A stretch of DNA of 64,000 nucleotides from the NCBI GenBank assembly GCA_020252645.1, contig JADCCN010000002.1:434001-498000 (forward strand), given 5' to 3'. Shown piece by piece: positions 48,870-64,000 of this stretch (within the stretch, counting starts at the first letter, position 1; each line of letters begins with the position of its first letter). A program made the position numbers and the translations under genes. The notes under the pieces were generated by a model, which saw nothing but the letters and a program-made list of their open reading frames with translations, did not search any database and was not told where the DNA came from. Source of the stretch: Methylobacterium sp. Lineage in GTDB: Bacteria > Pseudomonadota > Alphaproteobacteria > Rhizobiales > Beijerinckiaceae.

Positions 48870-50084
48870 ATGTCCGAGCGAATCCTCATTGCAGGCGCAG
48901 GCCCGGCTGGTGCGGCAACGGCGCTGGCGATGTTGCGCGCCGGCCTCCCGGCTTCGGATATCGCTGTCCTTGATGCGATGACCAGCGTGGCAGAGACGAT
49001 TCGCGAGCCGGATTCGCGCATTCTGGCGTTGAATGCCGGCTCCTGCCGCTTTCTGGAATCGCTCGGCGTCTGGCCAGCTCTCGCCGCCGCAGCGCATCCG
49101 ATGCGCTCGATTGCCCTCTCCGATACCGCGCTCGAGGCCGATATCCGGCCCCTCAGCCTCGGTTTTGCGGCGGCGGAAGGCGAGCCGCTCGCGCATCTCG
49201 TGCCGCTCGGGCTTCTGCAGAAGGTTCTGCGCTCGGCTCTGGCCGAGGTCGGCGTGATCCTGCGGCCCGAGATCATCCGCTCCTTCCGCGAGGAGGGCGA
49301 CAAACTGCTCGTCGAGACCAATCGCGGCCGGCAGCCGGTATCGCTGCTGGTTGGCGCGGATGGCGCCCGCTCGGCTGTGCGTCGCATCGCCGGCATTCCT
49401 TTGCATGGCTGGGCCTATGGGCAGGTGGCGCTGACGGGGATTGTCGAGCATTCGGGGCGGCATCACGGCGAGGCGATCCAGCATTTCCTTCCCGGCGGCC
49501 CTTTCGCGCTGCTGCCGCTCGAGGAAGGCCGCTCCTCCATGGTCTGGAGCGAGCGTGCCGAGGTCGCAAAGCGCATGCTCGCCTTGCCGCCGGAAGAGCT
49601 GCGCACACAGATCGATCGGCGCGCGGCGGGCTGGCGCGGCACCATCACCGAGATTGGCCGGATTTCGAGCCACCCGCTCTCGCTGGGTCTCGTGCGGCGA
49701 TTCGTGGGTCCGCGCCTCGCTCTGGTGGCGGATGCGGCGCATGTCGTTCACCCTCTCGCGGGGCAGGGGCTCAATCTCGGTTTCGGGGATGCCGCGACAC
49801 TGGCCGAAATCGTGATCGAGCATCTGCGCGTCGGGCTAGACCCCGGTGATCCGGACTTGCTGGAGCGCTATCAGGCGCGGCGGCGACCCGCTGCTGCGGC
49901 GATGGCCGCTGCGACCGAGGGGCTCAACCGGCTCTTTTCGAACGCCGTTGGCCCCTTGCGCGTGCTGCGCGATGCCGGGCTGAACCTCGTGAACCGCTCG
50001 GATCGGCTGAAGGACATGTTCCGTCAGGCTGCCGCCGGGCGTGGCGCGCATGAGCCGCGGCTCTTCCGCGGCGAGCCGATCTGA
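48870..50084 (+). CDS. UbiH/UbiF/COQ6-family FAD-dependent hydroxylase
   Basis: 404-residue flavoprotein monooxygenase expected to hydroxylate the ubiquinone ring. FAD motifs are ILIAGAGPAGAATALAML at the N-terminus, VGADGARSAVR in the middle and LALVADAAHVVHPLAGQGLNLGFGDA. The ATG at 48870 was chosen because AGGAGG ends seven bases upstream; the ATG at 48864 lies too close to that site. Which ring position it acts on cannot be decided. Confidence 0.9.
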   Translation: MSERILIAGAGPAGAATALAMLRAGLPASDIAVLDAMTSVAETIREPDSRILALNAGSCRFLESLGVWPALAAAAHPMRSIALSDTALEADIRPLSLGFAAAEGEPLAHLVPLGLLQKVLRSALAEVGVILRPEIIRSFREEGDKLLVETNRGRQPVSLLVGADGARSAVRRIAGIPLHGWAYGQVALTGIVEHSGRHHGEAIQHFLPGGPFALLPLEEGRSSMVWSERAEVAKRMLALPPEELRTQIDRRAAGWRGTITEIGRISSHPLSLGLVRRFVGPRLALVADAAHVVHPLAGQGLNLGFGDAATLAEIVIEHLRVGLDPGDPDLLERYQARRRPAAAAMAAATEGLNRLFSNAVGPLRVLRDAGLNLVNRSDRLKDMFRQAAAGRGAHEPRLFRGEPI

Positions 50085-50099
50085 TCTTGTGGCTTGGTC

Positions 50100-50143
50100 G
50101 CGTTTTTCTGACGCGAACCGGCTCCCGCTTCGCGTGAAAACGC
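50100..50143. repeat. 44-bp palindromic intergenic repeat, copy 3
   Basis: GCGTTTTTC...GTGAAAACGC ends, with a centre close to copies 1 and 2 (CGCGAACCGGCTCCCGCTT). It lies directly against the Trm112-family stop codon, between convergent genes, and may double as a terminator. Confidence 0.75.
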
Positions 50144-50144
50144 C

Positions 50145-50354
50145 TCAGTCGAGGCGGCGCGCTTCCTCGGGAAGCATGATGGGGATGCCATCGCGAACGG
50201 GATAGGCGAGCTTCGCGGGTCGGCTCACGAGTTCCTGTCGCACGGCGTCATAATCGAGCGTGGCCTTGGTGACGGGGCAGACCAGCAGTTCCAGCAGCTT
50301 CGGATCAACGCTGCGCTCGGGGCCGGATTGGGTGTCGGTCATCTGGTCGCTCAT
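50145..50354 (-). CDS. Trm112/UPF0434 family protein
   Basis: 69-residue small protein with [21 protein letters not shown] and [19 protein letters not shown], the two conserved blocks of bacterial YcaR/UPF0434. Only one of the zinc cysteines of eukaryotic Trm112 is present. Its role is likely as a methyltransferase partner, but the partner is unknown. Confidence 0.88.
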
Positions 50355-50380
50355 GGCAAATCCCCTGCTTGCCGCGCTTC

Positions 50381-51049
50381 TTACTGCAGGCGCGGCTCTT
50401 CGTCACCATCCTTGCGGGCAAGATCCATCTCGGTGATGGCGATGAGCATCTCGGCGCGGTCCTTTAGCGTTTCCGCTTCCAGCAGCGCCTGTTTCTCGCG
50501 CACGCCATAGGGCGACATCATGGAAAGGCCGTTGACCAGCGCCTCGTTGCCGGCCTGCTCGATGGAGCCCCAGTCGATCGGCACCTTGTTCGCATCCGAG
50601 AACTTGCGGAGAGCCGCAAGCATGCCCTCGCGATCCACCTCGTTCTCGCCTGCGCCAGGGCTGCGATCCGCCGAATAGGGCGCGAAATCCACCTTTGCCT
50701 GCCGGAACGGCGTGATGACCGACAATTCCTCGACGATCCGGAACCGGCTGATGCCGGTGAGTTGAATAAGGTATCGCCCATCGCCGGTCTCCGCGAATTG
50801 CGTGATTCGCCCGGAGCAGCCCACCCGGTAGATCTGCGGCAGGCCGATGCGATCGGCCATGCCCGGATCGGGCTGGACCATGCCAATGAGGCGGCTGCCG
50901 GCGAGTGCGGAATCGACCATCGCGAGGTATCGCGGCTCGAAGATGTTCAGCGGCATCTGCCCGCGCGGCAGCAGCAGTGCCCCCGGCAGCGGGAAAAGCG
51001 GCAGCGTGTCCGGCAGCATGAGGCCCGAGGGGCTCGACGAACTGGGCAT
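50381..51049 (-). CDS. LON substrate-binding-domain protein
   Basis: 222 residues with only the N-terminal (PUA-like) domain of Lon protease: [34 protein letters not shown] and [12 protein letters not shown]+ and protease domains are absent, as in the stand-alone family. The ATG at 51049-51047 has GGAGGAGG upstream. It follows the thioredoxin gene and is commonly found with it in Rhizobiales. Confidence 0.9.
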
Positions 51050-51071
51050 GCCGAAGCCTCCTCCGGGCAAA

Positions 51072-51950
51072 TCAGGCGAACAGGGTGGCGGAGAGCCGGC
51101 GACGGCCGGCGACGGTCGCATCGTCCTGGTTGCCCCAGGCCTCGAAGAATTGCAGCAATTGCTTCCTTGCGCCGTCATCGTTCCAGGCGCGATCCTTCCT
51201 GATGATCGCGATCAGCGCTTCCACCGCTTCTTCCTTGCGTCCCCGCGCATTGAGCGCGAGCGCCAGATCGAAGCGGGCCTGATGATCCAGCGCATTGGCC
51301 TCGACCTGTTTCTGCAGCGTATGGAGATCGCCAAGGGCCTCCACCTGCTTTGCGAGGTCGAGCGCGGCGCGCGCGCCGGCAATGGCGGGGTGTTCGGCCT
51401 TCTCGGCGGCAACGCGGGCCAGCATCTGCTCGGCCTGCATCAGCGCGCCTCCGAGGATCTGCGCGCGGATCAACCCGCCCAGGGCATCCATGTTCTCGGG
51501 CTCCTCCGCGAGAATGGCTGCGAAGAGTTCCATCGCGCCCGCCGCGTCGCCGCTCTCGAGCAGAGCCTGCGCCTCGGCCAGCACAGCGGCGAGGTCAGGG
51601 CCGGCCGGGCCGACGAGCCGCTCGATGAAGCCCTTGATCTGGCTCTCCGGCAGGGCGCCCATGAAGCCGTCGATCGGCTGGCCGCGCTGGAAGGCGAAGA
51701 CGGCGGGAATCGACTGCACGCCGAGCTGGCCCGCGATCTGCGGATGCTCGTCGATATTCATCTTGACGAGTTTCACCTTGCCCTTGTAGCTCGCCACCAC
51801 TTTCTCGATCACGGGGGTCAGCTGCTTGCAGGGCCCGCACCATGGGGCCCAGAAATCGACCAGCACGGGCTGGTTCATCGATTCCGCCAGCACGTCCTGG
51901 CGGAAATCCTTGGTGGTCGTGTCCTTCACGAGGGCGGTGGCGTCGGTCAT
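51072..51950 (-). CDS. thioredoxin-TPR protein (CnoX/YbbN type)
   Basis: 292 residues: a thioredoxin domain with intact WAPWCGPCKQL active site (about residues 34-44), then a TPR-like helical C-terminal domain (about 120-292). This layout matches YbbN/CnoX, a chaperedoxin that protects proteins from over-oxidation and hands them to GroEL. Unlike E. coli CnoX, the redox motif is a complete CGPC, so disulfide reductase activity is expected. Confidence 0.9.
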   Translation of the reverse strand: MTDATALVKDTTTKDFRQDVLAESMNQPVLVDFWAPWCGPCKQLTPVIEKVVASYKGKVKLVKMNIDEHPQIAGQLGVQSIPAVFAFQRGQPIDGFMGALPESQIKGFIERLVGPAGPDLAAVLAEAQALLESGDAAGAMELFAAILAEEPENMDALGGLIRAQILGGALMQAEQMLARVAAEKAEHPAIAGARAALDLAKQVEALGDLHTLQKQVEANALDHQARFDLALALNARGRKEEAVEALIAIIRKDRAWNDDGARKQLLQFFEAWGNQDDATVAGRRRLSATLFA

Positions 51951-52039
51951 GGCTCGGAACCCTGTTCTTCCGGCCGCAGGCGGCCTTGCTGTGATATGTG
52001 GAATTCAAGCGGGAAGGTTGCAACCCGTCACGGGAGATT

Positions 52040-52567
52040 TCAGCCCCCGGCCTCGGGCTCAAGCACGCGATGGGGAAGCTCCATCGCTTGCACCGCATGG
52101 CCTGTCGCCGCGATATAGGCGAGCAATTCCTCGCGTTTCAGGGCCGTGGTGCGTGAATTGACGAGGGGATGCACATTGATGATCTCGTGCTCGAGAAGGC
52201 GTTTCTCGAGGATGAAGGTGACAAGGCCCGCCTTGTCATTCACAAGCGCAAGCGGCGTCACCGAGCCGGGCTCGACGCCGAGATACGCGCGCAGCAGTTC
52301 CGCGCTCGCAAAGGAGAGCCGCCCCCTGGTGCCCAGGAGCTTGCTTGTCGCGTTGAGGTCGACGGGGCTGTCTTCCTCGGCGGTGATGAGGAAGAGCCGG
52401 TCGGCCTTGTCCTTCGTGAAGAGGTTCTTGGTGTGCCCGCCGGGCAGGGTGCCGCGCAATTCTTGCGATTGAGCCACGGTGAAGACAGGCGGATGTTCCA
52501 CCGTGCGGTGGGCGATGCCCAGCTTGGCGAGCAGGGCGTAGGCGGGGGCGGAAGGGTCGGCGCTCAT
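52040..52567 (-). CDS. prolyl-tRNA editing deacylase (PrdX/YbaK family)
   Basis: 175-residue stand-alone editing domain predicted to remove mischarged alanine from tRNA-Pro. The YbaK-fold blocks are TVEHPPVFTVAQSQEL, GGHTKNLFTKDKADRLFLI with the catalytic lysine, and GVEPGSVTPLALVND. The ATG at 52567 starts the conserved region; the upstream open frame overlaps the tRNA gene and is not coding. Confidence 0.9.
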   Translation of the reverse strand: MSADPSAPAYALLAKLGIAHRTVEHPPVFTVAQSQELRGTLPGGHTKNLFTKDKADRLFLITAEEDSPVDLNATSKLLGTRGRLSFASAELLRAYLGVEPGSVTPLALVNDKAGLVTFILEKRLLEHEIINVHPLVNSRTTALKREELLAYIAATGHAVQAMELPHRVLEPEAGG

Positions 52568-52668
52568 GCGGATCGGTCCGGAAAGGGGAGTTGCGGCACG
52601 TTCTTTGCCCGCTTGGCCGCGGAAAGCCAAGCCCTGCCGGCCTCCCGGCACATGGCCACAAAATGCCT

Positions 52669-52698
52669 CTTGCCTTTTCGACGGCTCTTGTTCTAAAC
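52669..52698 (+). promoter_or_regulatory. candidate promoter of tRNA-Gly
   Basis: CTTGCC followed after 18 bases by CTAAAC, about 30 bases upstream of the tRNA 5' end. It is a plausible sigma-70 pair, judged by eye. Confidence 0.35.
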
Positions 52699-52728
52699 AC
52701 CGGGCATCGGCGGTCACGTCGAATGGAT

Positions 52729-52803
52729 GCGGGTGTAGCTCAGGGGTAGAGCACAACCTTGCCAAGGTTGGGGTCAAGGGTTCGAATCCCTTTACCCGCT
52801 CCA
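52729..52803 (+). tRNA. tRNA-Gly (anticodon GCC)
   Basis: Complete cloverleaf: acceptor arm GCGGGTG/TACCCGC with U73, D arm beginning TAGCTCAGGGGTAGAGCA, anticodon stem CAACC/GGTTG with loop TTGCCAA, T-loop GGTTCGAATCC, and an encoded CCA. The anticodon GCC reads GGC/GGU. It marks the boundary between conserved core genes on its left and the accessory catabolic region on its right. Confidence 0.97.
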
Positions 52804-52836
52804 GTTTTCTCTTGTTTCACGAAAGAGTTGTGAATG

Positions 52837-52849
52837 GCCCCCTCGGGGC
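52837..52849 (+). terminator. weak hairpin downstream of tRNA-Gly
   Basis: GCCCC/GGGGC with a 3-base loop followed by GGCCTTCCCTTTTCCC. A possible terminator for the tRNA transcript. Confidence 0.35.
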
Positions 52850-52998
52850 GGCCTTCCCTTTTCCCTTGCCGTCAGGTTTCCGGAGCCGTCAGGCACCCGC
52901 CAGGCACGGGAGGTTTTTCGTGTGGTTTTGATGCTCGAACGAGCGCCACGATCACCGAGCCGAGCGCCATCCTGCGGTAGCAAGGGCCGGCCCACGCC

Positions 52999-53700
52999 TC
53001 AGAGTGCCTCAAGCACCGGCCTCCAGCCGATATCTTCATGCCGATGCGATTGCGTGTTGAGATAGAAAAACCGCGCCGAGTGATAACCGCGGCAGCACCT
53101 GGCGGTCGCGCGGTGCAGATAGGGTTCCTGTGTCCAGCTCACCGCTCCAAGCCAGTTCCAGATCCGATTATGGGCGGAAGCAAGATCGACATCGGAAAGA
53201 TCCCTTGTCCCATCTCGCGCCTTCGGTGGAGGAAGCCCTTCCACCGGCTCATCGCCGCCAATGAACCGGTCCCATTCATTTCGAGGTGAAGCGCCATCGA
53301 ACCCGTCCTTGCCTGTCCGAAAATCCTGCCCGCCAGTCAGAAGCCGGCAGCGAAAGGCCTTGCCATCGATCGAGATCCTGCGGCCGGCCACATAGCCCGC
53401 CGCATCGAGATCATCCCAACTCACGCGCGCGAGAATCACCCGGTCGCTGATGAGAAGCCGACGCCCGTCATCGTCGATCTCATTCCAGAGAAGCTGATGG
53501 GCTGGCGAAGCCGGCGTATCGCCCAGCTGCCAGCGGGCGAAATCAGGCGCGGTTTCAAAATCAGCGATATCCCCCGGAACCACCGGGAATGGCGGCTTGA
53601 GGAGCGACAGATCAATCAGCCAAGGCCTTGAGGGGCGTGGAGATGCAAGATCGTCCTTGATGAGGCATCCAAGGGCGACCTGCCCGAGATAGCGAGCCAT
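52999..53700 (-). CDS. uncharacterised protein with GWRPVLE C-terminus
   Basis: 233 residues, no signal peptide or membrane helix. Two blocks stand out: LWNEIDDDGRRLLISDRVIL plus VSWDDLDAAGYVAGRRISIDGKAFRCRLLTGG in the middle, and a cysteine/arginine/aromatic-rich C-terminus ending CCRGYHSARFFYLNTQ...GWRPVLEAL. From memory this layout resembles hypothetical proteins seen mainly in Firmicutes and their phages, and the RG-S-AR...GWRP ending recalls C-type-lectin or formylglycine-enzyme-like folds. No function can be assigned. It stands alone between the tRNA and the catabolic operon, on the opposite strand, which suggests acquisition. Confidence 0.75.
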   Translation of the reverse strand: MARYLGQVALGCLIKDDLASPRPSRPWLIDLSLLKPPFPVVPGDIADFETAPDFARWQLGDTPASPAHQLLWNEIDDDGRRLLISDRVILARVSWDDLDAAGYVAGRRISIDGKAFRCRLLTGGQDFRTGKDGFDGASPRNEWDRFIGGDEPVEGLPPPKARDGTRDLSDVDLASAHNRIWNWLGAVSWTQEPYLHRATARCCRGYHSARFFYLNTQSHRHEDIGWRPVLEAL

Positions 53701-53838
53701 AATCTCTCCTGATCAAAACGAGGTTCCATTCTTATGGTGGCGGATCGTTGGCCTGGCTGCAAGGAGCTTGTAAAAATGGAAAAATCTATTTCTTTGGACG
53801 TCGACGTCATTGACATCTCCATGCAGGTCGATTCAATA

Positions 53839-53855
53839 ATGAAACGCAATTTCAT
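53839..53855 (+). promoter_or_regulatory. putative operator of the catabolic operon
   Basis: Perfect inverted repeat ATGAAA-N5-TTTCAT, 37 bases before the binding-protein start codon. A weaker GAAA-N6-TTTC motif lies about 60 bases upstream. An IclR-type regulator encoded in the operon is the obvious candidate ligand. Confidence 0.45.
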
Positions 53856-53892
53856 TTTGATGAAGTTCTGAATGCGCTCCAGGGAGACGAAC

Positions 53893-54969
53893 ATGGTCAA
53901 GCAGACTGAAATCAATCGGCGCGGCTTCCTCGCAGGCGCCTCTGCGGTGAGCGCATCGGTGATCGCCGGCCCGGCCTTTGCGCAGCAGGGCACAGTGACC
54001 TTCACCTCCTGGGGCGGCGCCTTCCAGGATGCGCTGCGCAGCTCAATGCTGACGCCGGCCGGGCAGGCGCTCGGCATGACCATCCGGGAAGATACAACCA
54101 ACGGCATTCAGGATGTCCGCGCCCAGATCACGGCCCGGCGCGTCGTTTGGGATGTGACCGAGCAGGAACTTCCGACCGCGGAGACGCTGAAGCGCGAGAA
54201 TGCGCTCGAGCCGCTCGACTACAGCGTCATCAACACGGATGGCATCCCCAAGGAGCTGGTGAACTCGCACTATGTCGGCTTCATCAACTTCACCAAGGTG
54301 ATCGCATGGCAGGCATCGACCTACGGCGAGAACGGCCCGACGACATGGGCCGATTTCTGGGACGTGAAGAAGTTTCCCGGCAAGCGCTCGTTGCAGCAGC
54401 AGGTGAACTACGCCCTTGAAGCCGCGACCATGGCGCAAGGTGTCGCCTTTCCCGATGTCTACAAGGTGCTGGCCACCAAGGAGGGCATGGACAAGGCCTG
54501 GGCCAAGCTTGAGGAGATCGCTCCGCACATCACGGTCTGGTATCGGGGTGGTTCGCAATCGGCCCAATTGTTGCGCGACGGCGAGGTCGACATCATTCAC
54601 ATGGGCCATAACCGCGTCGAGAGCGTCATCGGCTCGGGCAAGAAGGTCAACTACAAGTTCGATGGCGGCACGATGGATATCGATGCGCTGATGGTGCCGC
54701 GCGGCGCGCCCAACAAGGCGAATGCCATGCGGTTGATCAACGAACTGCTGAAGCCCGAGCCGCAAGCGCGTCTGGCCAAGGCGATGCCGCTCGGGCCGGT
54801 GAACACGAATGCCTTCAAGACCGGCATCCTGACCGAGGCCGAGATGCTCAAGGTCAACACGCATCCCAGCAATATCGGCAAGCAGCTTCTGATCGATCCG
54901 AACTTCTATATCGGCCGCCTCGATGTCCTGACCGAGCGCTTCGAGCGCATCAAGCAGCGGCGCGGCTGA
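53893..54969 (+). CDS. ABC transporter substrate-binding protein (PotD/opine family, Tat-exported)
   Basis: 358-residue periplasmic binding protein. The N-terminus NRRGFLAGASAVSASVIAGPAFA is a twin-arginine signal. The mature part begins VTFTSWGGAFQDALRSSML, typical of family-1 extracellular proteins for spermidine/putrescine, opines or related cations; TTWADFWDVKKFPGKR and a C-terminal PNFYIGRLDVLTERFERIK are also typical. The ATG at 53893 follows AGGGAGA. First gene of the catabolic operon; ligand unknown, but the downstream ureohydrolases suggest a guanidino or amidino compound. Confidence 0.92.
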   Translation: MVKQTEINRRGFLAGASAVSASVIAGPAFAQQGTVTFTSWGGAFQDALRSSMLTPAGQALGMTIREDTTNGIQDVRAQITARRVVWDVTEQELPTAETLKRENALEPLDYSVINTDGIPKELVNSHYVGFINFTKVIAWQASTYGENGPTTWADFWDVKKFPGKRSLQQQVNYALEAATMAQGVAFPDVYKVLATKEGMDKAWAKLEEIAPHITVWYRGGSQSAQLLRDGEVDIIHMGHNRVESVIGSGKKVNYKFDGGTMDIDALMVPRGAPNKANAMRLINELLKPEPQARLAKAMPLGPVNTNAFKTGILTEAEMLKVNTHPSNIGKQLLIDPNFYIGRLDVLTERFERIKQRRG

Positions 54970-55041
54970 TCCTGGTCATTGCTCCGGCTGTGTTTCTTGA
55001 TCGCCACGTCCTTCGGCGTGCCTCCGGAAAGGGCGCATCTC

Positions 55042-56136
55042 ATGGCTGTTGCTGCCACCTCGTCCCAGTCCTTGCCGATCACGGTCAGCAACCTCGTCAA
55101 GTCCTATGGCGATCTGCGCGTCCTCGACGATGTTTCGATCGCCATCCGCCCTGGCGAATTCATGACATTGCTGGGTCCATCCGGTTCGGGAAAGACGACA
55201 CTGCTGATGGCGCTTGCCGGCTTCGTCAGCCCCGAAAGCGGTTCGATCCGCTTCGGTGAGCAGGAAATGATCACCACCTCGCCGCATAAGCGCGGGGTGG
55301 GCTTGGTGTTCCAGAGCTATGCGCTGTTTCCGTTCATGAGCGTGGCCGAGAACGTTGCCTATCCGCTGAAGATCAGGGGTATATCACCGGCCGATCAGAA
55401 GCGTCGCGCCGAAGCCGCGCTCGAGATGGTCAAGCTCGGCGGCTATGGTGGGAGGCGGATCAACCAGCTCTCTGGCGGGCAGAAACAGCGCGTGGCTCTC
55501 GCCCGCGCCATGGTGTTCGAGCCGCGCATCATCCTGATGGATGAGCCCTTGTCGGCGCTCGACAAGAAACTGCGCGAGCATATGCAGATCGAGCTGAAGC
55601 AGCTTCATCAGAAACTCGATGCCACGATCGTCTATGTCACGCATGACCAGCGCGAGGCGCTGACGATGTCGGATCGCATCGCGGTAATCAACAAGGGCCG
55701 TATCGCCCAGCTCGACGACCCCAAGGCGCTCTATCGCCGCCCGAACTCGCTGTTTGTTGCGGATTTCATCGGCGAAACGGTGCTTTTGCCCGTCCAGCGG
55801 GATGGGGATGGCGTCAGCCTGCAGGGCCGCAGGCTGAAGCTCGCCACGCCAACTCCAACAGGGTCTGGGCCGCTGCAACTGGTCATCCGGCCGGAACTGC
55901 TCCAGCTCGACGGCGGCGACGACGACCAGACAAACACGATCGCAGGCGTGGTCCGGCAGACAATCTACCAGGGAGACTCGGTCTTGCTGATCATCGATGC
56001 CGGCGAGGGTCGCGAGGTCTCTGTGCGCATTGCCACAAACCGCGCCGGGCAGGCCAGCCTCCCGGACAGCGGCAGCCAGATTGCCCTCGGGCTGCACCGC
56101 GATGACACCGTCGTGCTGGCGGAGCAGTCGTCATGA
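55042..56136 (+). CDS. ABC transporter ATP-binding protein (PotA-like)
   Basis: 364-residue ATPase with Walker A GPSGSGKT (45-52), signature [14 protein letters not shown], Walker [12 protein letters not shown] and H-loop VTHD. A C-terminal TOBE domain (about 280-364) is as in spermidine/putrescine importers. The ATG at 55042 was chosen; the frame is open 21 codons further upstream. It overlaps the first permease by ATGA. Confidence 0.93.
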
Positions 56137-57011
56137 GTGCTGCTAGCTTAATGAATGCCGACGATCTGGCAGGCGGGCAACGGCGCGAGCGGGCGCAGTT
56201 CATCGGGCTCAGCCTGCCCGCGACCCTGCTCATCCTGATCATCGTGTTCCTGCCGCTGTTCTGGCTCGGCTCGCTGTCCTTCCTCGACCGCGGCGGCGCG
56301 GTTTCGCTGGAGAACTACCAGCGACTGACCGGAGATCTCTACATCGACGCGTTCATCGTGACGTTCCAGATCAGCGCTGCGGTCACGATCCTCTGCGTGC
56401 TGCTCGGTTATCCTCTGGCTTATTGGTTAAGCCGGAAACCCCAGTGGACAGCCAATCTGCTGCTGATCTGCGTGCTGCTGCCGTTCTGGACCGCGGTGCT
56501 CGTGCGCACCTATGCCTGGCTGGTGCTGCTTCAGCGCAATGGCCTGATCAACAACACGCTTTTGTCGATCGGGCTGATCGACACTCCCCTCCAGCTCGCC
56601 CATAATCTGACGGCCAGCATCATCGGCATGGTGCATATCATGCTGCCCTTCCTCGTCCTGCCCCTCTATGCATCGATGAAATCAATCGATGGCGATCTGG
56701 TGCGCGCGGCGGTCGGGCTTGGTTCGAGCCCGACGGAAGCCTTCTGGCGCATCTTCGTGCCGATGTCTCTGCCGGGCCTTTTTGCTGGCGTGGTGCTGGT
56801 CTTCATCCTGTCGCTCGGCTTCTACGTGACACCGGCGCTGCTGGGCGGCGGGCGGGTGCAGATGCTCGCGCAGCGGATCGAATCCACCATCACCATCTTC
56901 TCGAACTGGGGGGCAGCCAGCGCGCTGGGCGTCGTGCTTCTGCTTATGGCGCTCGCGCTGGTGGCGATCCTCCACCGGGTCTTCGGGCTCGACAAGCTGT
57001 TTGTGAGGTAA
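56133..57011 (+). CDS. ABC transporter permease (PotB-like)
   Basis: 292-residue inner-membrane permease with six predicted helices. The cytoplasmic EAA loop is DLVRAAVGLGSSPTEAFWRIFVPMSLPGLFAG. The first helix (ATLLILIIVFLPLFWLGSLSFLDRGG) is preceded by about 28 cytoplasmic residues. Starts in the ATGA overlap with the ATPase gene; the second permease follows five bases after its stop. Confidence 0.92.
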   Translation: MSAASLMNADDLAGGQRRERAQFIGLSLPATLLILIIVFLPLFWLGSLSFLDRGGAVSLENYQRLTGDLYIDAFIVTFQISAAVTILCVLLGYPLAYWLSRKPQWTANLLLICVLLPFWTAVLVRTYAWLVLLQRNGLINNTLLSIGLIDTPLQLAHNLTASIIGMVHIMLPFLVLPLYASMKSIDGDLVRAAVGLGSSPTEAFWRIFVPMSLPGLFAGVVLVFILSLGFYVTPALLGGGRVQMLAQRIESTITIFSNWGAASALGVVLLLMALALVAILHRVFGLDKLFVR

Positions 57012-57016
57012 GCGCC

Positions 57017-57829
57017 ATGGCGGCTCAAGACATGCCCGGTGCCTCACCCTGGACGCAGCGCTTGCTCGCCATCTACGGCGCGCTGGTCCTGTTCTTTCTG
57101 ATGCTGCCGACCGTCATCGTGATCCCGATGTCGTTCTCGGATTCGCAGTATCTGGAGTTTCCCCCGACAAGCTGGTCCTTGCGCTGGTACCGCGAGTATT
57201 TCGGCTCATCGGCCTGGATGAGCGCCACCTGGACGTCGCTTCTGGTCGCAGTCCTGACGACCGTGCTGGCCGCGCCGCTAGGCACGTTGGCCGCCTATGG
57301 CATGCATTGCACCTCTGATAAGGTCCGGAACGCCCTGCAGTTGCTCGTTCTGATGCCGGTGGTCGTGCCGTCGATCCTGATCGCCGTCGGCGTGTTTCAT
57401 CTCTATGCGATGGTCGACCTGAACTACTCGATCACGGGCCTCGTTCTCGCCCATACCGCGCTTGCCGTGCCCTTCGTGATCATCACGGTACTGTCGAGCC
57501 TCAACAACTACGACATGACGCAGGAGATGGCCGCGCGGAGCATGGGCTCATCGCGGCCGCGCGCCTTCCTCGATATCACGCTGCCGCAGATCAAGTTCTC
57601 GGTCCTCACCGGGGCTTTCCTCGCTTTCATCACCTCGCTCGATGAGGTGGTGGTGGCCAAGTTCATCTCGGGCGGGGAGAATGCGACGATCACGCGGCGC
57701 ATGTTCAACGCCTTGCGGGACCAGATCGACCCGACGATTGCGGCCATCTCCACCTGCCTGATCGTCATTTCGGTGCTGGCACTGGCCGCGGTGCAGATCT
57801 TTGGCACCCGCGGCAAGGGGAGCGCCTGA
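57017..57829 (+). CDS. ABC transporter permease (PotC-like)
   Basis: 270-residue permease with six helices and EAA loop EMAARSMGSSRPRAFLDITLPQIKFSVLTGAFLAFITSLDEVVVAKFISG, typical of PotC. Together with the preceding three genes it completes a polyamine/opine-type importer. The first ureohydrolase-like gene starts two bases after its stop. Confidence 0.93.
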   Translation: MAAQDMPGASPWTQRLLAIYGALVLFFLMLPTVIVIPMSFSDSQYLEFPPTSWSLRWYREYFGSSAWMSATWTSLLVAVLTTVLAAPLGTLAAYGMHCTSDKVRNALQLLVLMPVVVPSILIAVGVFHLYAMVDLNYSITGLVLAHTALAVPFVIITVLSSLNNYDMTQEMAARSMGSSRPRAFLDITLPQIKFSVLTGAFLAFITSLDEVVVAKFISGGENATITRRMFNALRDQIDPTIAAISTCLIVISVLALAAVQIFGTRGKGSA

Positions 57830-57830
57830 C

Positions 57831-58634
57831 ATGGTGGCCCGGCTCATCCATCGACACGCGATTTCCGACCGAGTTTTCCCGGGCTCGCATCCAGGATGCC
57901 TCGATGATATCGGCGTCGGCGATATTGTCCTGTTCGGGGCTGACATCGATGCGGCCCGTGCCATCCGCGATGCGGCCCACGGCCTCGGCGAAACGTCACA
58001 GCCTGCCATCCGTCGGCTCGATCTCGGTGACATGGATGATCCGGAAAGCCATTTGCCGGACTTTCTCGCCATCGTTGCCGGGCGCGGTGCCCGCTCCGTC
58101 ATGCTCGGCGGCAATGCCGAGCTGGGCACGGCGCTGGCGAAGGGGTTTGCAGGCTCATCCGGCGCCTTGGCGCCGGCCGTTGTCCTGATGTCGCCGCAGC
58201 TGCACATTTCTCCGCCGCGGCAACCTGGCACCCCGGCCCTGGCCATCGGCACTACGCGCCTGGTCGGCAGGCAGGAACATGATGCGTGGCGGAGTGCCGG
58301 CGGAGCGATTCTGCCAGCGGCGACCTTCGACATCACGAAGCTGGAAGAGGCGCTGACCATTTTCGGTGCGAAGGCGCGCGAGGCGCTTCTCGTCGTCGAT
58401 CTGAGCGTCGTCGATACGGGCTATGCCGCCGGAGCCACCCTTCGCAATGTCGGGGGGTTGAGCCCGATCGTCACACTCGAAGCGGTAGCGCGTATTCGCT
58501 CCCGTTTTGAAATCCGCGGCCTTTGCTTGCTCAATCTGATGCCCGAGCGTGACCCGCGCGGCCATTCCGAGCGAATCGCCGCCATGATCATCCAGAGCGT
58601 CCTGGCGGGCCATGCCGCGAGGCACGCAGCATGA
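57831..58634 (+). CDS. degenerate ureohydrolase-like protein A
   Basis: 267 residues that follow the arginase/agmatinase outline but lack its metal site. LDLGD (63-67) corresponds to the family's DxGD block. The GGDH motif has become GGNA (93-96) and the DAHxD region reads LMSPQLH (119-125). The SxDxDxxDP motif reads VVDLSVVDTG (188-197), keeping one aspartate. The C-terminal LNLMPERDPRGHSERIAAMIIQSVL mirrors the family's EVSPxxD...A block. It starts two bases after the permease and overlaps gene B by four bases. Family membership is inferred from motif order and from its intact neighbour; similarity is weaker than for B and C. Confidence 0.6.
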   Translation: MVARLIHRHAISDRVFPGSHPGCLDDIGVGDIVLFGADIDAARAIRDAAHGLGETSQPAIRRLDLGDMDDPESHLPDFLAIVAGRGARSVMLGGNAELGTALAKGFAGSSGALAPAVVLMSPQLHISPPRQPGTPALAIGTTRLVGRQEHDAWRSAGGAILPAATFDITKLEEALTIFGAKAREALLVVDLSVVDTGYAAGATLRNVGGLSPIVTLEAVARIRSRFEIRGLCLLNLMPERDPRGHSERIAAMIIQSVLAGHAARHAA

Positions 58635-59335
58635 TGGCTGCCGAAATGCCCGACCCTGCCCGGAAGCCCGCTCTTGCGCAGATCGCCTCGCTGCTCGGCG
58701 CACCCATTGCCGAACTGGAGGCCGTGCGGCCAGGTGATATCTGCCTTGTCGGGCTGTTCGAGGACCACGCCGACGGTCTGCATTTTGGCGCGCGTTTCGC
58801 CGCCCGGCAGATCCGCTATGCCAGCCAGGCCGAACGTGCGACGCCTTCGGCTGGCATCGCGCCGGGAATTCTCGATCTTGGCGACTTCAATGTGTTTCCC
58901 CTCGAGCGGGAGCGCAACCGTGCCGCCCTCATCCGCCAGATCGCCGCGCTTGTCGAACGGGGCGCGGTGCCTGTGATTGTTGGCGGAGCCTTTGCGATGG
59001 GGCCGATCCTGCAACAGGTGCTGTGCCGGAAAGAGCCTGGGGATGTGCGGCATATCCGTTTGCCGGCAGCCAATGAGCCGACGATGCCTTCGGATGGAAC
59101 GCATCGGATGGCCGTGACGATCGACATGGCCGCCTGGCAACAAGGAGCGCCCGCCGGAGAGCGACCCCTGGCAAAACTCCGTTGCGCGATCGAAGGATTG
59201 CCGCCGCAGCGAATCGGTGCGGCCCACCTCACCGGCCTTGCGCCAGAGCTTGACCTTTGCGGACGCCACGAGAGCAGCCTCGGCCGACTTGTTCTGGAAT
59301 TTCTGGTCGCGCATCTGCGCAAGGCGAGGGCGTGA
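58631..59335 (+). CDS. degenerate ureohydrolase-like protein B (short)
   Basis: 234 residues, about 100 shorter than the intact paralogue. The N-terminal DICLVGLFEDHADGLHFGARFAARQIRYAS (36-65) matches the family's GxP.D...RPGAR.GP..IR..S block, and ILDLGD is at 80-85. GGDH is replaced by GGAF (118-121), the DAHxD strand is missing, and the last ligand motif reads VTIDMAAWQQGAPAG (162-176) with one aspartate. The C-terminal LAPELDLCGRHESSLGRLVLEFL matches the family end. Almost certainly non-catalytic as a hydrolase. Overlaps A by four bases and C by one. Confidence 0.68.
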   Translation: MMAAEMPDPARKPALAQIASLLGAPIAELEAVRPGDICLVGLFEDHADGLHFGARFAARQIRYASQAERATPSAGIAPGILDLGDFNVFPLERERNRAALIRQIAALVERGAVPVIVGGAFAMGPILQQVLCRKEPGDVRHIRLPAANEPTMPSDGTHRMAVTIDMAAWQQGAPAGERPLAKLRCAIEGLPPQRIGAAHLTGLAPELDLCGRHESSLGRLVLEFLVAHLRKARA

Positions 59336-60246
59336 TGTCACTGCGCATCGAACCGCTTCCGCGTATGGCCGGACACCTGCCCTTCATGCGCGGCCGGCTG
59401 GTGCGGATCGATGATCTGGTGCCCGGCATGGTTGCCGCCTTCGGCGTTCGCGCCGGGCGCGATGCACGAACTGACCTTGCCGCACTCGCGATGCGTGAAA
59501 CCTCGGCCTATTTCGGCTCCCATTTCAATGCCAACATGAAATCCGCCATGGATATCGACCAGCGGCAGCCGCTGCGCAGCGCTGCGATGGCTGGCGCGAT
59601 GGTCGACCTCGGCGATATCGAGGTTGATATGGCCGCATTCGGCCTTGATATCGCAATCCGACAGATAGTGGCGCGGATCTGCCGGCGTGGCGCGATCCCG
59701 ATCATGCTTGGCGGCGATCAGGCCGATGGGGTTTCTGCCTCTGCCGGTCTCGGCGAGGCACATGCCGAATCGCCTGAAAGCCCGGCGCTTGTTCTGATCT
59801 GTGCCGCGCCGCGCGCGGGGCCGGCCGGCACCGCCGATGGTTTCTGCACGCTTTCGCAGCCGCTGCGTGAAAACAACCGGCATGCCGGCCTGGCACTGAC
59901 ATTCCAGGATTTGCGCAAATCCTTCGAGTGCGCGGTCGGGATGATGCTGGATCACTTCGGCACGAAGCCGGTTCACGTGGCGCTGGATGCCTCGGCGATT
60001 GCCAGCCATTGGCATGCCACCCATGCGGATGCCGGTTTCGACGGATTGAGCCTCTCGGAATGCCGGGCCTTGTTCCGGCGCCTGGGCCGGGCAAACATTG
60101 CCAGCCTCTCGATAACCGGGCTGGACCCGACCATCAACGGGCTCTCTCTGGTCAAGACCGGCCAGCGCCTGCTCCTCACCGCCATTCTCGATCTGATTTA
60201 CGCGCGGCTCGATGTGCTTGGCCCGCGCCTGGAACCCGGACCATGA
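59335..60246 (+). CDS. degenerate ureohydrolase-like protein C
   Basis: 303 residues. MVDLGD (89-94) and IPIMLGGDQ (121-129) align with the family, but the ligand histidine is now glutamine (Q129). The DAHxD strand reads LICAAPRAG (154-162), and the final motif VALDASAI (215-222) keeps D218 only. Unlike B it has nearly full length, including the GFDGLSLSECRALFRRL helix region. The start shares one base with the stop of B (TGATG), and its end overlaps the intact enzyme gene by ATGA. Likely a pseudoenzyme or structural partner. Confidence 0.68.
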   Translation: MSLRIEPLPRMAGHLPFMRGRLVRIDDLVPGMVAAFGVRAGRDARTDLAALAMRETSAYFGSHFNANMKSAMDIDQRQPLRSAAMAGAMVDLGDIEVDMAAFGLDIAIRQIVARICRRGAIPIMLGGDQADGVSASAGLGEAHAESPESPALVLICAAPRAGPAGTADGFCTLSQPLRENNRHAGLALTFQDLRKSFECAVGMMLDHFGTKPVHVALDASAIASHWHATHADAGFDGLSLSECRALFRRLGRANIASLSITGLDPTINGLSLVKTGQRLLLTAILDLIYARLDVLGPRLEPGP

Positions 60247-61241
60247 CTACGCCAATCGGCTTTTCTTCACCCGTTCGGCATTTCTTTGCCGGTGAACCCG
60301 CCGGGATCGCGGCCCTCCGGCCGGGCGATACCGCCTTCATCGGCATGCCTTCGGATGCCACCCATACAAGCCGTATCGGCGCGCGGTTTGGTCCAAGGGC
60401 TCTCCGCCATGAAACCAGCCAACTCATGGCGGCGCTGCGGCGAGAGGGGCAAGGTCAGCTTTTCGATCTGGCGACCGGGCAAATCTGCCGGCTCACCCCT
60501 TGCCGAAAACTGGTCGATCTCGGCGATGCCGCCATTGATCCGCTGGATGTCGAGCAGATGATCCGGTCGATTGCCGGGTTGACAGGGGGCGCCATTCGTC
60601 AGGGCGCGTTGCCGGTCGCCATCGGGGGTGATCATTTCAACAGCTACCCCGCCTGCCTCGGCGTTTCGGAAGCGCTGATGGAATGCGAGCCTGATGCGCG
60701 CTTCGGCTACATCCAGATCGATGGCCATCTCGATTTCTGTGACCGGCTGGCGGCCTGGGGACCGTTCAATCACGCCACCAATGCCCGGCGCTGCTCGGAG
60801 CTTCCCAATCTTCGCCGCGAGAACATGGTCTGGATCGGCATTGCCGGGTGGGTCGACGGCAATGATGTTTCGGAAATCGAAGGCTTCGGAGGCCTGATTT
60901 TCTCCGCGGAAGACGTTCATCGGATCGGTGCGCGCGAGGTTGCGCGCCGCGCCGTCGCGCATGCGTTGCGCAACTGCGACCGCCTTTACCTGACGATGGA
61001 TGTCGATGCGCTCGATTCCGGCTTCCTGCCGGGAACCGGTTCCATCGTGCATGGCGAGATCACCTGCCGCCAGTATCTCGACCTGCTCGAGGTCTTCGCG
61101 GAGGCGCCGCTATGCGGGATCGACATGGTCGAGGTGTCGCCGCCGCTGGATCCCTCCGGTCGGTCTGAAGCCATTGCGGCTCAGCTGCTGTTCGAGGTGC
61201 TGCGGCCGCGCCTGATAACGGCGGAAGGGGCGCAGGCATGA
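60243..61241 (+). CDS. ureohydrolase (agmatinase/guanidino-acid hydrolase family), intact
   Basis: 332-residue member of the arginase/agmatinase/formiminoglutamase family. All six binuclear manganese ligands are present: H131 in GGDH, D160, H162 and D164 in DGHLD (usually DAHxD), D253 and D255 in MDVDALD. E297 in VEVSPPLDP is also conserved. The family N-terminal block AFIGMPSDATHTSRIGARFGPRALRHETSQL is clear. Substrate is unknown: agmatine, guanidinobutyrate, guanidinopropionate or guanidinoacetate are possible by family. It overlaps gene C upstream and the aldehyde dehydrogenase downstream by ATGA. Confidence 0.9.
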   Translation: MTTPIGFSSPVRHFFAGEPAGIAALRPGDTAFIGMPSDATHTSRIGARFGPRALRHETSQLMAALRREGQGQLFDLATGQICRLTPCRKLVDLGDAAIDPLDVEQMIRSIAGLTGGAIRQGALPVAIGGDHFNSYPACLGVSEALMECEPDARFGYIQIDGHLDFCDRLAAWGPFNHATNARRCSELPNLRRENMVWIGIAGWVDGNDVSEIEGFGGLIFSAEDVHRIGAREVARRAVAHALRNCDRLYLTMDVDALDSGFLPGTGSIVHGEITCRQYLDLLEVFAEAPLCGIDMVEVSPPLDPSGRSEAIAAQLLFEVLRPRLITAEGAQA

Positions 61242-62677
61242 GGGTCTTTCCCAACCTGATCGGCGGCGAAGCTGCCGCGACCGAGGAGGTGATGGCCAAC
61301 ATCAACCCTTCGGACACGCGGGATATCATCGGCGAGTTCGCGGTTGGAACGCGCAGCGATGTGGAAACTGCCATTGCGGCGGCTGCCGCAGCCTTTCCGT
61401 TGTGGTCACGGACAAATGCCCTGACGCGCTTCGAGATCCTTGACCGGATCGGCTCCGAGATCTGCGCGCGCTCGGCCGAAATCGGCGACATGCTGGCCCG
61501 CGAGGAAGGCAAGACCTTGAGGGAGGCGACCGCCGAAGTGCTGCGCGCCGGGCAATTGTTCAAGTTCTTTGCCGCTGAAGCCTACCGGGCGAACAGCGAA
61601 GGCCTGCCCTCCGTGCGCGACCAGATTGGGTTGACGGTGTCGCGCGAGCCGATCGGCATCGTCGGCATCATCACGCCGTGGAACTTCCCGATTGCCATTC
61701 CCGCCTGGAAAATCGCGCCCGCTCTCGCCTATGGCAATACGATCGTGTTCAAGCCGGCCGAACTGGTCCCTGGCTCGGCCTGGCTGCTCGCTGACATCAT
61801 CAACCGCTCCGGGCTTCCCAAAGGCGCATTCAACCTTGTGATGGGCCATGGCGCGGTGGTGGGCGATGCCATCGTGTCCTCTGCGAAGGTCGCGGGAGTT
61901 TCCTTCACGGGATCGACGCGCGTGGGCAAGGCCATCGGCCATGCGCTTTTCGAACGCGGCGCGCGCATGCAGCTCGAAATGGGTGGAAAGAACCCGCTCA
62001 TCGTGCTGGATGACGCGCCGCTGGAACGGGCTGTCGATTCTGCGCTCCAGGGCGCGTTCTTCTCCACCGGCCAGCGCTGCACGGCCTCCTCCCGGCTGAT
62101 CGTGACGCCGGGCATCCATGATGCCTTCGTGACGCGGCTCCGGGAGCGCATGGCCGAGCTTGTCATCGGTGATGCGCGAGATCCTCAAACGCAGATCGGG
62201 CCTGTGGTTTCGGAGGCCCAGCTTGCGATTGACCAGCACTATCTCGACATCGGTCGCCGCGAAGGCGCCCGCCTCGCGCAAGGCGGAGAACGGTTAAACC
62301 CCAAGGCGCCGGGCTACTATCTCAACCCGGCTCTTTTCACCGAGACCACCAACCGCATGACGATCAATCGCGACGAGATTTTCGGCCCGATCGCAGCTGT
62401 CATCCCGGCGCGGGATTATGAGGAGGCGCTGGTCATCGCCAATGATACCGAGGCGGGACTATCGAGCGGGATTGTCACCCGGGACTCGAAAATCATCCGC
62501 CACTTCCGGGAACATGCCGAAGCAGGCATGATCCAGGTCAACCTGCCGACCGCCGGCATGGATTTCCACGCGCCATTCACGGGCCGGAAACAGGCAGGCT
62601 ATGGCCCCGCCGAGAAAGGCAGCCATGCAAGGGAATTCTTCACGGCGGTCAAGGTCACCCACGAGCAGTTTATCTGA
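61238..62677 (+). CDS. NAD(P)-dependent aldehyde dehydrogenase (succinate/ketoglutarate-semialdehyde type)
   Basis: 479-residue ALDH with N149 (PWNF), E247 (LEMGGKNP) and nucleophile C281 (GQRCTASS) all in place. The C-terminal YGPAEKGSHAREFFTAVK is of the type seen in alpha-ketoglutarate-semialdehyde and succinate-semialdehyde dehydrogenases. In the operon it would oxidise an aldehyde made after amidino-group removal and amine transfer, but no aminotransferase is visible in the window. Overlaps the ureohydrolase by ATGA. Confidence 0.92.
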   Translation: MRVFPNLIGGEAAATEEVMANINPSDTRDIIGEFAVGTRSDVETAIAAAAAAFPLWSRTNALTRFEILDRIGSEICARSAEIGDMLAREEGKTLREATAEVLRAGQLFKFFAAEAYRANSEGLPSVRDQIGLTVSREPIGIVGIITPWNFPIAIPAWKIAPALAYGNTIVFKPAELVPGSAWLLADIINRSGLPKGAFNLVMGHGAVVGDAIVSSAKVAGVSFTGSTRVGKAIGHALFERGARMQLEMGGKNPLIVLDDAPLERAVDSALQGAFFSTGQRCTASSRLIVTPGIHDAFVTRLRERMAELVIGDARDPQTQIGPVVSEAQLAIDQHYLDIGRREGARLAQGGERLNPKAPGYYLNPALFTETTNRMTINRDEIFGPIAAVIPARDYEEALVIANDTEAGLSSGIVTRDSKIIRHFREHAEAGMIQVNLPTAGMDFHAPFTGRKQAGYGPAEKGSHAREFFTAVKVTHEQFI

Positions 62678-62720
62678 ACCCCGACCTGATTTCAGGGTCG
62701 ATCCAACGAGCGGTGATGCC

Positions 62721-63479
62721 ATGTCGAATGATTCACTTCTTCATTCCGAGAGCCGGTCGGATGACCGCATGGGGGTCGAGGCTGTCGAGCGCGCCTTGAG
62801 CCTGCTGGATGCGCTTGGTTCTGTGGAGGCTCCGCTGTCCCTCAAGGAGCTGGCGCTGAAGACCGGGCTTTCCAAGGCGACCATCCTGCGCCTGACCGTT
62901 TCGCTGGAGCGGTTCGGCTATGTCAGCCGCAGTCTTTCGGGGGCATACCAACTGGGGCCGACCCTTTGGCGTCTCGGCTCTGTTTTCCGCCAGAACCTCG
63001 AGCTGGAGCCGATCATCCGGCCCGCCATGCAGGCCCTTGTCTCGCTGACCCAGGAGAGCGCTTCGTTCTGGATTCCGCGCGGCGAGGAGCGGATGTGTCT
63101 TTTCCGGCAGAATTCGCCGCGCAGCGCCCGCTCCCATGTCGAGGAAGGCGAGAGTTCGCCCATCGGGAAAGGCTCCGGAGGCCATATTGTGGCCTATTAT
63201 CTCGGCATGCCGACCCGTTTCTCGGAAGATATCCGCGCTGAAGGCGTTGTCGCGACCCTGGGCGATCGCGATCCGGATGTGGCGAGCGTCTCGGCGCCCG
63301 TGCTGGGGCCGAACCGCGAATTCGTCGGTGCCCTGACCCTGGCGGGCATTCTCAACCGCTTCGAGGCCCATGTTCCCGAATACAAGGTGATCGTGAAGCA
63401 AGCCGCAGCGTCGATCACGCGGCAACTGGGCGGCGAGCCTGAACTGGTCTCCCACCGCTCCGCGGAACGTCGCGAATGA
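62721..63479 (+). CDS. IclR-family transcriptional regulator
   Basis: 252 residues: winged helix (VEAVERALSLLDALGSVEAPLSLKELALKTGLSKATILRLTVSLERFGYV, about 13-65) and an IclR effector domain ending ITRQLGG. It lies inside the operon and shares ATGA with the CoA-transferase gene, so it is probably self-controlled. The inverted repeat at 53839-53855 is a candidate binding site. A 43-base gap before it contains an imperfect CGACCTGA/TCAGGGTCG palindrome (62682-62700). Effector unknown. Confidence 0.93.
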   Translation: MSNDSLLHSESRSDDRMGVEAVERALSLLDALGSVEAPLSLKELALKTGLSKATILRLTVSLERFGYVSRSLSGAYQLGPTLWRLGSVFRQNLELEPIIRPAMQALVSLTQESASFWIPRGEERMCLFRQNSPRSARSHVEEGESSPIGKGSGGHIVAYYLGMPTRFSEDIRAEGVVATLGDRDPDVASVSAPVLGPNREFVGALTLAGILNRFEAHVPEYKVIVKQAAASITRQLGGEPELVSHRSAERRE

Positions 63480-64000
63480 CCCTTCCTCTCAGCGGCGTTC
63501 GCGTTCTCGATCTCTCGAATGTGCTCGCGGGTCCGTTCTGCGGCTACAATCTCGCGCGGCTGGGTGCCGAGGTGATCAAGGTCGAGAATCCCGAGGGCGG
63601 CGATCTTGCCCGAAAGCTCGGGGCTGATCCCGACATGGCGAAACGCCTGATGGGCCTTTCCTTCGTGGCCGTGAATGCCGACAAGCAATCCATCACGCTC
63701 GACCTCAAGAAGGCGGATGCGAAGGAAGCCTTCCTGCGCCTTGTCGAGCAGAGCGACGTGGTGCTGGAGAATTTCCGGCCCAAGGTGATGGAGCGGCTGG
63801 GCCTCGGCTATGAGGTGCTTTCGGCCCGCAACCCGAAGATCATCTCCTGCGCGATCTCCGGGTTCGGGCAGGACGGCCCCTGGGCCGGGCGCCCGGCCTA
63901 TGACCAGATCGTCCAGGGGCTTTCCGGGGCCATGAGCGTGACCGGCGATGCAGAAACAGCACCCTTGCGCACGGGTTTTCCGATTTCGGATACGATCGCG
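63476..64000 (+). CDS. CaiB/BaiF family (type III) CoA-transferase, partial
   Basis: First 175 residues of a family III CoA-transferase, cut by the right edge. The N-terminal PLSGVRVLDLSNVLAGPFCGYNLARLGAEVIKVENP and FRPKVMERLGLGYEVL are diagnostic. The catalytic aspartate is D172 in GFPISD. It would activate an acid to its CoA ester using a CoA donor, possibly the acid made by the aldehyde dehydrogenase; substrate unknown. Coupled to the IclR gene by ATGA. Confidence 0.92.
   Translation, partial: MTLPLSGVRVLDLSNVLAGPFCGYNLARLGAEVIKVENPEGGDLARKLGADPDMAKRLMGLSFVAVNADKQSITLDLKKADAKEAFLRLVEQSDVVLENFRPKVMERLGLGYEVLSARNPKIISCAISGFGQDGPWAGRPAYDQIVQGLSGAMSVTGDAETAPLRTGFPISDTIA

Follow-up and report, generated by a model that had tools for sequence, protein, structure and literature searches.

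The 64,000-nucleotide stretch of Methylobacterium sp. DNA analyzed here (the window, G000:C12:434001-498000, where G000 is the window's own genome) contains four consecutive, overlapping genes of the ureohydrolase family, A to D, at positions 57831-61241, of which only D has the complete binuclear metal site of the family. D probably provides catalysis in a hetero-oligomeric ureohydrolase encoded in a catabolic operon, with A, B and C as structural pseudo-subunits of that enzyme; we infer a physical complex, a dependence of D on A-C and its likely stoichiometry, metal and substrate. The array comprises:

57831..58634, + strand: A, putative ureohydrolase-family pseudo-subunit, 267 residues; metal site lost, D190 (first Asp of the last motif) retained
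58631..59335, + strand: B, putative ureohydrolase-family pseudo-subunit, 234 residues, the shortest of the four; DxHxD sector gone, D165 retained
59335..60246, + strand: C, putative ureohydrolase-family pseudo-subunit, 303 residues; N-terminal 20 residues near-invariant
60243..61241, + strand: D, intact ureohydrolase, 332 residues, presumed catalytic subunit; H131, D160, H162, D164, D253 and D255

The six ligands of D lie in GGDH, DGHLD and DVDALD motifs. At the GGDH site A reads GGNA, B reads GGAF and C reads GGDQ; all three lack DxHxD, and each retains a single ligand, the first Asp of the last motif. An initial annotation had already recognized four adjacent overlapping genes of this family, six ligands in D only and one remaining Asp in each of A-C, all of which was borne out. 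Its motif readings for A-C stand as well, whereas the motif that it gave as DAHxD is DGHLD in D, and GGNA is peculiar to this genome: the four other A proteins known to us have GGDA, GGDP, GGDG and GGDT, likewise without the His. The overlaps that it reported were also found (A/B 4 bp, B/C 1 bp and C/D 4 bp), and the 3′ end of D shares another 4 bp with the start of an aldehyde dehydrogenase gene at 61238. It had taken them to imply fixed stoichiometry, which does not follow, as overlaps of this kind argue for translational coupling only.

Membership of all four proteins in the family was assessed with profiles. Each scored above the curated cut-off of 22 bits for PF00491 (Arginase), with 32.7 bits for A, 25.2 for B, 31.7 for C and 192.5 for D, so the DLGD...GG pattern that they share exceeds chance. 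Aligned to the D family by hhalign, A matched over 244 columns (probability 97.7), B over 215 (97.6) and C over 127 (96.6), and A, B and C matched each other nearly full length (212 columns for C versus A, 216 for C versus B), these probabilities being nominal because the alignments are small. Searches of the PDB with the A, B and C profiles returned ureohydrolases only at E≤0.01: 13 sequences for A (best the formimidoylglutamase 3m1r, 4.8e-13), 6 for B (best 9fek, 3.3e-9) and 13 for C (best 7esr, 4.1e-6). The closest solved relatives of the D profile were 9fek (133 bits) and 7esr (130 bits), with 3nip also among the best; searched as a single sequence, D found the 3-guanidinopropionase 3nip first (109 bits), and neither 9fek nor 7esr came first. 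D fell below the cut-offs of the equivalog models for agmatinase (TIGR01230, 105 bits versus 174.3), formimidoylglutamase (TIGR01227, 92.4 versus 229.15 bits) and arginase (TIGR01229, 64.8 versus 227.6 bits). Judged by sequence, A-D all belong to the ureohydrolase superfamily, in agreement with the fold proposed initially; D classifies as a member enzyme of PF00491, and A-C as members by descent and not as enzymes of that kind. Annotation of A-C as agmatinase or arginase would be incorrect.

The A-B-C-D order recurs at five further loci. It is complete at L007, L008, L010 and L016, and the contig of L009 starts within B, with C and D following. Orthologues of A were thus found at L007, L008, L010 and L016, of B at these four and, incomplete, at L009, and of C at L007-L010 and L016. 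In identity to the window's proteins, D spans 82-56%, C 67-31%, B 58-32% and A 59-27%. All 17 junctions checked within the arrays overlap, by 1-14 bp with the start codons that we picked; the value of 14 is the C/D overlap of L008, whose D was taken from the ATG at 6905. Among the loci seen, A-C never occurred without D, nor an orthologue of D without C.

Loss of the metal site is shared across these loci. In an alignment of 31 proteins (the incomplete B of L009 was excluded here, from the trees and from the N-terminal conservation test), H131, D160, H162 and D255 are lost in 16 of 16 A-C proteins, while D253 is retained in all 16. An Asp stands in the column of D164 in six of the 16 (four A and two C, none from the window), where the alignment is uncertain. 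The six ligands are complete in all six D proteins and in all nine other ureohydrolases of the examined genomes. A, B and C each have conserved patches of their own, which differ from those of D; PERDPRG of A and TGLxP, shared by B and C, are examples. In C, residues 1-20 contain 14 positions invariant across six proteins that are down to 31% identical, compared to two each in the first 20 residues of A, B and D. No position of C is invariant in the sector that once held the active site (residues 141-200), in part owing to the L010 protein, from which much of this sector is missing.

The possibility that A-C are decaying duplicates heading for loss was considered, as they have lost five ligands, carry mid-protein deletions and evolve fastest in the operon. 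The frameshifted pseudogenes that this would lead one to expect in relatives were not seen: the reading frames of A, B and C are open at all loci, across 27-67% identity, and gene order and overlaps are conserved. Rough pairwise ratios of nonsynonymous to synonymous divergence (dN/dS) stayed well below 1 over four genome pairs (A 0.22-0.48, B 0.14-0.39, C 0.16-0.35, D 0.11-0.25). Decay was rejected on these grounds and is very improbable; A-C are instead under purifying selection. Between the window and L008, dN was 0.44 for A, 0.38 for B and 0.31 for C; D reached 0.14, the aldehyde dehydrogenase 0.085 and the importer genes encoded upstream 0.016-0.050. The importer proteins are 93-96% identical between these two loci and A-C 48-62%, the pseudo-subunit proteins changing about ten times faster.

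A paralogous pair of this general kind has been described. Metformin hydrolase, in 2024 the first ureohydrolase reported to be heteromeric (PMC11271267), is encoded by metCa and metCb (MetCaCb, also MefH). According to two reports (PMC11271267, PMC11399263), its trimer combines one active and two metal-free subunits, trimers pair into an α2β4 hexamer, metal is bound by the α subunit alone, and neither subunit is functional by itself; dimethylguanidine hydrolase (DmgH) is also described there as heteromeric with a metal-free pseudo-subunit. PMC11271267 further states that the dead subunit has an N-terminal loop which forms a cap over its living partner's active site, that removal of 23 residues there abolished soluble expression, and that 56 paired arginase genes exist, some pairs with both members intact. 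As in MetCaCb, MefH and DmgH, the active gene of the present array adjoins paralogues without most metal ligands, which made the statement of the initial annotation that no described system has this layout too strong. The part of that statement that stands concerns number: unlike MetCaCb, with its one dead subunit, the array encodes three distinct ones, which are shorter and lie upstream of the active gene. In the open-access literature searched, with supplementary files and subscription papers outside the search, the metformin hydrolase work provided the only heteromeric ureohydrolases found, and no description of three dead paralogues with one active gene was found.

Whether the array belongs to the metformin/dimethylguanidine hydrolase family was addressed with trees. 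Apart from the adjoining metal-free paralogues, such membership could draw on 8ryi_C, the dead metformin hydrolase subunit, which A, C and D each count among their relatives of solved structure. In a maximum-likelihood tree of 31 proteins, A-C formed one clade (support 99/97) sister to D, and the A-D clade stood apart from nine other ureohydrolases (97/97). A second tree, from which columns less than 60% filled were removed, added MetCa and MetCb (one pair only) and four plasmid ureohydrolases, three of which have all six ligands and one of which (L032) has Asp replacing His. A-C again formed one clade (98/96), and MetCa and MetCb were sisters, each other's closest rows (99/95). The A-D clade dissolved because the plasmid protein of L034 grouped with D (85/80), although forcing A-D monophyly was not rejected in the approximately unbiased (AU) test (p 0.344). 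Forcing A-C together with MetCb was rejected (AU p 0.0008), and with it the membership of A-C in the clade of the single MetCb included. Moreover, hypA and hypB adjoin metCaCb, whereas HypA (PF01155), a family of nickel chaperones, was found in neither of the two genomes tested, G000 and G680 (control positive in 7 of 14; HypB not searched for). Membership of the metformin hydrolase family is thus very improbable. From the AU rejection, the metal-site loss of A-C looks independent of that of MetCb. The simplest history would be a single loss of the metal site followed by two duplications, predating either the split of these bacteria or transfer of the operon, and unlike that of metformin hydrolase. 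That HypA was not found in these two genomes mildly favors manganese over nickel as the metal of D.

Other known systems offer partial parallels. The entries 9fek and 7esr, which lead the PDB matches of the D profile and rank high for B and C too, are guanidine hydrolases, as we take them to be, although their records read 'Putative/Probable agmatinase 2'; compared to them, D is shorter, reads DGHLD and is accompanied by three pseudo-paralogues. The signs that D might be a guanidine hydrolase of the GdmH type are mixed: these two entries head the profile search and not the single-sequence search, and the nickel chaperone HypA was not found in G000 or G680. The 3-guanidinopropionase 3nip and the guanidinobutyrase 3nio have an intact binuclear site like D, and are presumably homo-oligomers of one gene product without pseudo-subunits. 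The trypanosomatid prozyme, activator of S-adenosylmethionine decarboxylase (PMC6221367, PMC5201418), is likewise a dead paralogue that activates a living partner, but it has an unrelated fold and one dead partner, in a heterodimer.

Taken with the gene neighborhood, these comparisons allow a mechanism to be proposed. A polyamine-type ATP-binding cassette (ABC) importer would take up a cationic guanidino or similar compound, and a hetero-oligomeric ureohydrolase would cleave it, with D as the sole catalytic subunit using its binuclear metal site. A, B and C would go back to an ancestral ureohydrolase in which loss of the metal site preceded duplication; they would fill positions of the usual trimer or hexamer and give D stability, lining or capping its active site in the manner of MetCb with MetCa. 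The near-invariant N-terminus of C may be the counterpart of the MetCb N-terminal cap, and it is this feature, together with the capping precedent of MetCaCb, that leads us to read A-C as pseudo-subunits shaping the active site of D. A more specific arrangement can be suggested tentatively: a fixed four-gene enzyme, for example a hexamer with a D homotrimer stacked on an A-B-C heterotrimer, in which each dead subunit would have its own place and contact and the C N-terminus would cap D.

Two other roles for A-C were weighed against that of pseudo-subunits. They could form a separate assembly that serves the pathway without being part of the D enzyme, for example by sensing, carrying or scaffolding a guanidino ligand; A, B and C are indeed nearer to one another than to D in the trees, align with each other nearly full length, and each have conserved patches of their own unlike those of D. 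Their constant adjacency to and overlap with D, the lack of any locus seen with one and not the other, and the precedent of metformin hydrolase make this unlikely, if worth keeping in mind. A-C could alternatively have acquired a different catalytic activity independent of the binuclear metal, the four proteins performing consecutive steps. The operon does hold several pathway genes, and PERDPRG and TGLxP are strongly conserved motifs that contain no ligand; yet in each of the three proteins the metal-site sector is either missing or not conserved, the conserved positions of C concentrate outside the former active site, and we know of no reaction carried out in the ureohydrolase fold without its metal site. 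We regard new catalysis as distinctly improbable.

Several points weigh against the assignment of A-C as pseudo-subunits of D. The four kinds of subunit of the predicted complex misfit the simple α2β4 pattern. A-C are the quickest-evolving genes of the operon, which is compatible with loose constraint, and synonymous sites are near saturation (proportion of synonymous differences, pS, 0.49-0.73), so the dN/dS ratios are rough. The enrichment of invariant positions at the C N-terminus (hypergeometric p 1.1e-6 within C) comes from a test devised after the alignment had been inspected. The A of L016, 27% identical to that of the window, was assigned mainly by position; it fell outside A in the first tree and with A at a mere 58/22 in the second, and because of this poor placement its name rests on position. 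Tree branches are long, which lowers confidence in the descent.

If the fixed four-gene arrangement is correct, the array would represent the first ureohydrolase with three different obligatory pseudo-subunits within the literature searched, and pseudo-subunits would have arisen in this fold a second time, independently. An independently evolved case with three dead paralogues would show that the family has repeatedly converted homo-oligomers to hetero-oligomers with dedicated dead parts. The operon, in which one copy is active and three have degenerated in different ways, all of them under selection and found at six loci of varied divergence, would provide a natural series for the study of pseudo-subunit function.

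The array lies among genes of uptake and catabolism. The flanking features in the window are:

52999..53700, - strand: 233-residue protein without family match; homologues in L008 and L010 (both incomplete) and L016
53893..54969, + strand: solute-binding protein of a polyamine-type ABC importer (PF13416; PotD 32.7 bits, far below the equivalog cut-off)
55042..56136, + strand: importer ATPase (TIGR01187 potA 365.7 bits, above the cut-off of 355.6)
56133..57011, + strand: importer permease 1, PotB/PotH-like (PF00528; best NCBIfam PotB, below cut-off)
57017..57829, + strand: importer permease 2, PotC-like (PF00528; best NCBIfam PotC, below cut-off); stops one base ahead of A
61238..62677, + strand: aldehyde dehydrogenase (PF00171; best NCBIfam alpha-ketoglutaric semialdehyde dehydrogenase, 488.6 bits, below the cut-off of 770)
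62718..63479, + strand: IclR-type regulator (PF09339, PF01614)
63476..64000, continuing past the window, + strand: coenzyme A (CoA)-transferase family III (PF02515; best NCBIfam succinate-glutarate CoA-transferase, 281.1 bits, below the cut-off of 750)

Importer genes were found at every locus with a long enough contig (the window, L008, L010 and L016), and L007 shows one or both permeases. The aldehyde dehydrogenase occurs at five of six loci (the window, L007, L008, L009 and L016); none was found at L010, whose sequence spans 13.2 kb and in which the regulator gene comes directly after D (L010:6755-8534). The CoA-transferase has 401 residues at full length (L012:11477-12682). This enzyme and the aldehyde dehydrogenase resemble dicarboxylate and dicarboxylate-semialdehyde enzymes, far below the equivalog cut-offs. 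A gene for citryl-CoA lyase is the last of the operon at L008 and L016, and urease is present in three of four cluster genomes tested, having not been found in G680. The pathway that we infer imports a cationic guanidino compound and degrades it to urea and a carbon skeleton. After the CoA-transferase in the window's genome (L012:13149-13244), a 32-residue match to the L008 citryl-CoA lyase (53%, E 1.7e-5) looks like a gene remnant.

The 233-residue protein had no Pfam or NCBIfam match and no credible match in the PDB. Its family (229-233 residues, 46-69% identity) adjoins the cluster at all four loci whose contig reaches there, two of the four members being incomplete, and at L016 (8335-9024) the homologue is located within the operon, where it separates D from the aldehyde dehydrogenase gene.

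The cluster is rare. A scan for a C pattern that covered one genome per species (GTDB 220 collection) gave 65 matches, four of which code for relatives, those of L007, L008, L009 and L010. The C profile was positive in two of 385 genomes of the class, the window's own and G680, whose contig provided L016. Among 397 genomes of the window's order, C was found only in the window's own, and likewise D at E≤1e-60. In the 385 class genomes centered on G680, D at E≤1e-60 was found in G680 only, as it was at 1e-100 among 15 genomes in the order of G680. In 398 genomes of the phylum, the C profile matched the window's genome and G433; the latter (E 6.5e-10) was rejected as an ordinary ureohydrolase that scores 130.7 bits with the D profile and 40.8 with that of C. 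The same-genus genomes G082, G287 and G354 lack the cluster by both C and D profiles.

Among 72,556 plasmid records, none matched C, and 89 matched D at E≤1e-20, all at less than 60% identity (29-35% for the 30 of the 89 listed). Four plasmid neighborhoods (L031-L034), taken from 391 records at E≤1e-8, showed no such array. The Mesorhizobium plasmid locus L034 (3496-6790) carries in series a radical S-adenosylmethionine (SAM) gene, a gene of the agmatinase family whose product is the one grouped with D (85/80) in the second tree, and a phosphotransferase.

A search of window positions 50000-64000 with Rfam for a riboswitch returned only one tRNA, and for marks of a genomic island no second tRNA 3′ end was found within 38 kb, no integrase profile search having been made. 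The tRNA, tRNA-Gly(GCC), lies shortly before the cluster (window 52729-52864 region). Its left flank is matched in three of three same-genus genomes and its right flank in one of the three, over 29 bases only; similarity to G354 ends about 60 bases beyond the tRNA. A few kilobases beyond the operon, on the opposite strand (L012:15370-17999), are genes that by eye resemble those for sarcosine oxidase alpha and gamma subunits.

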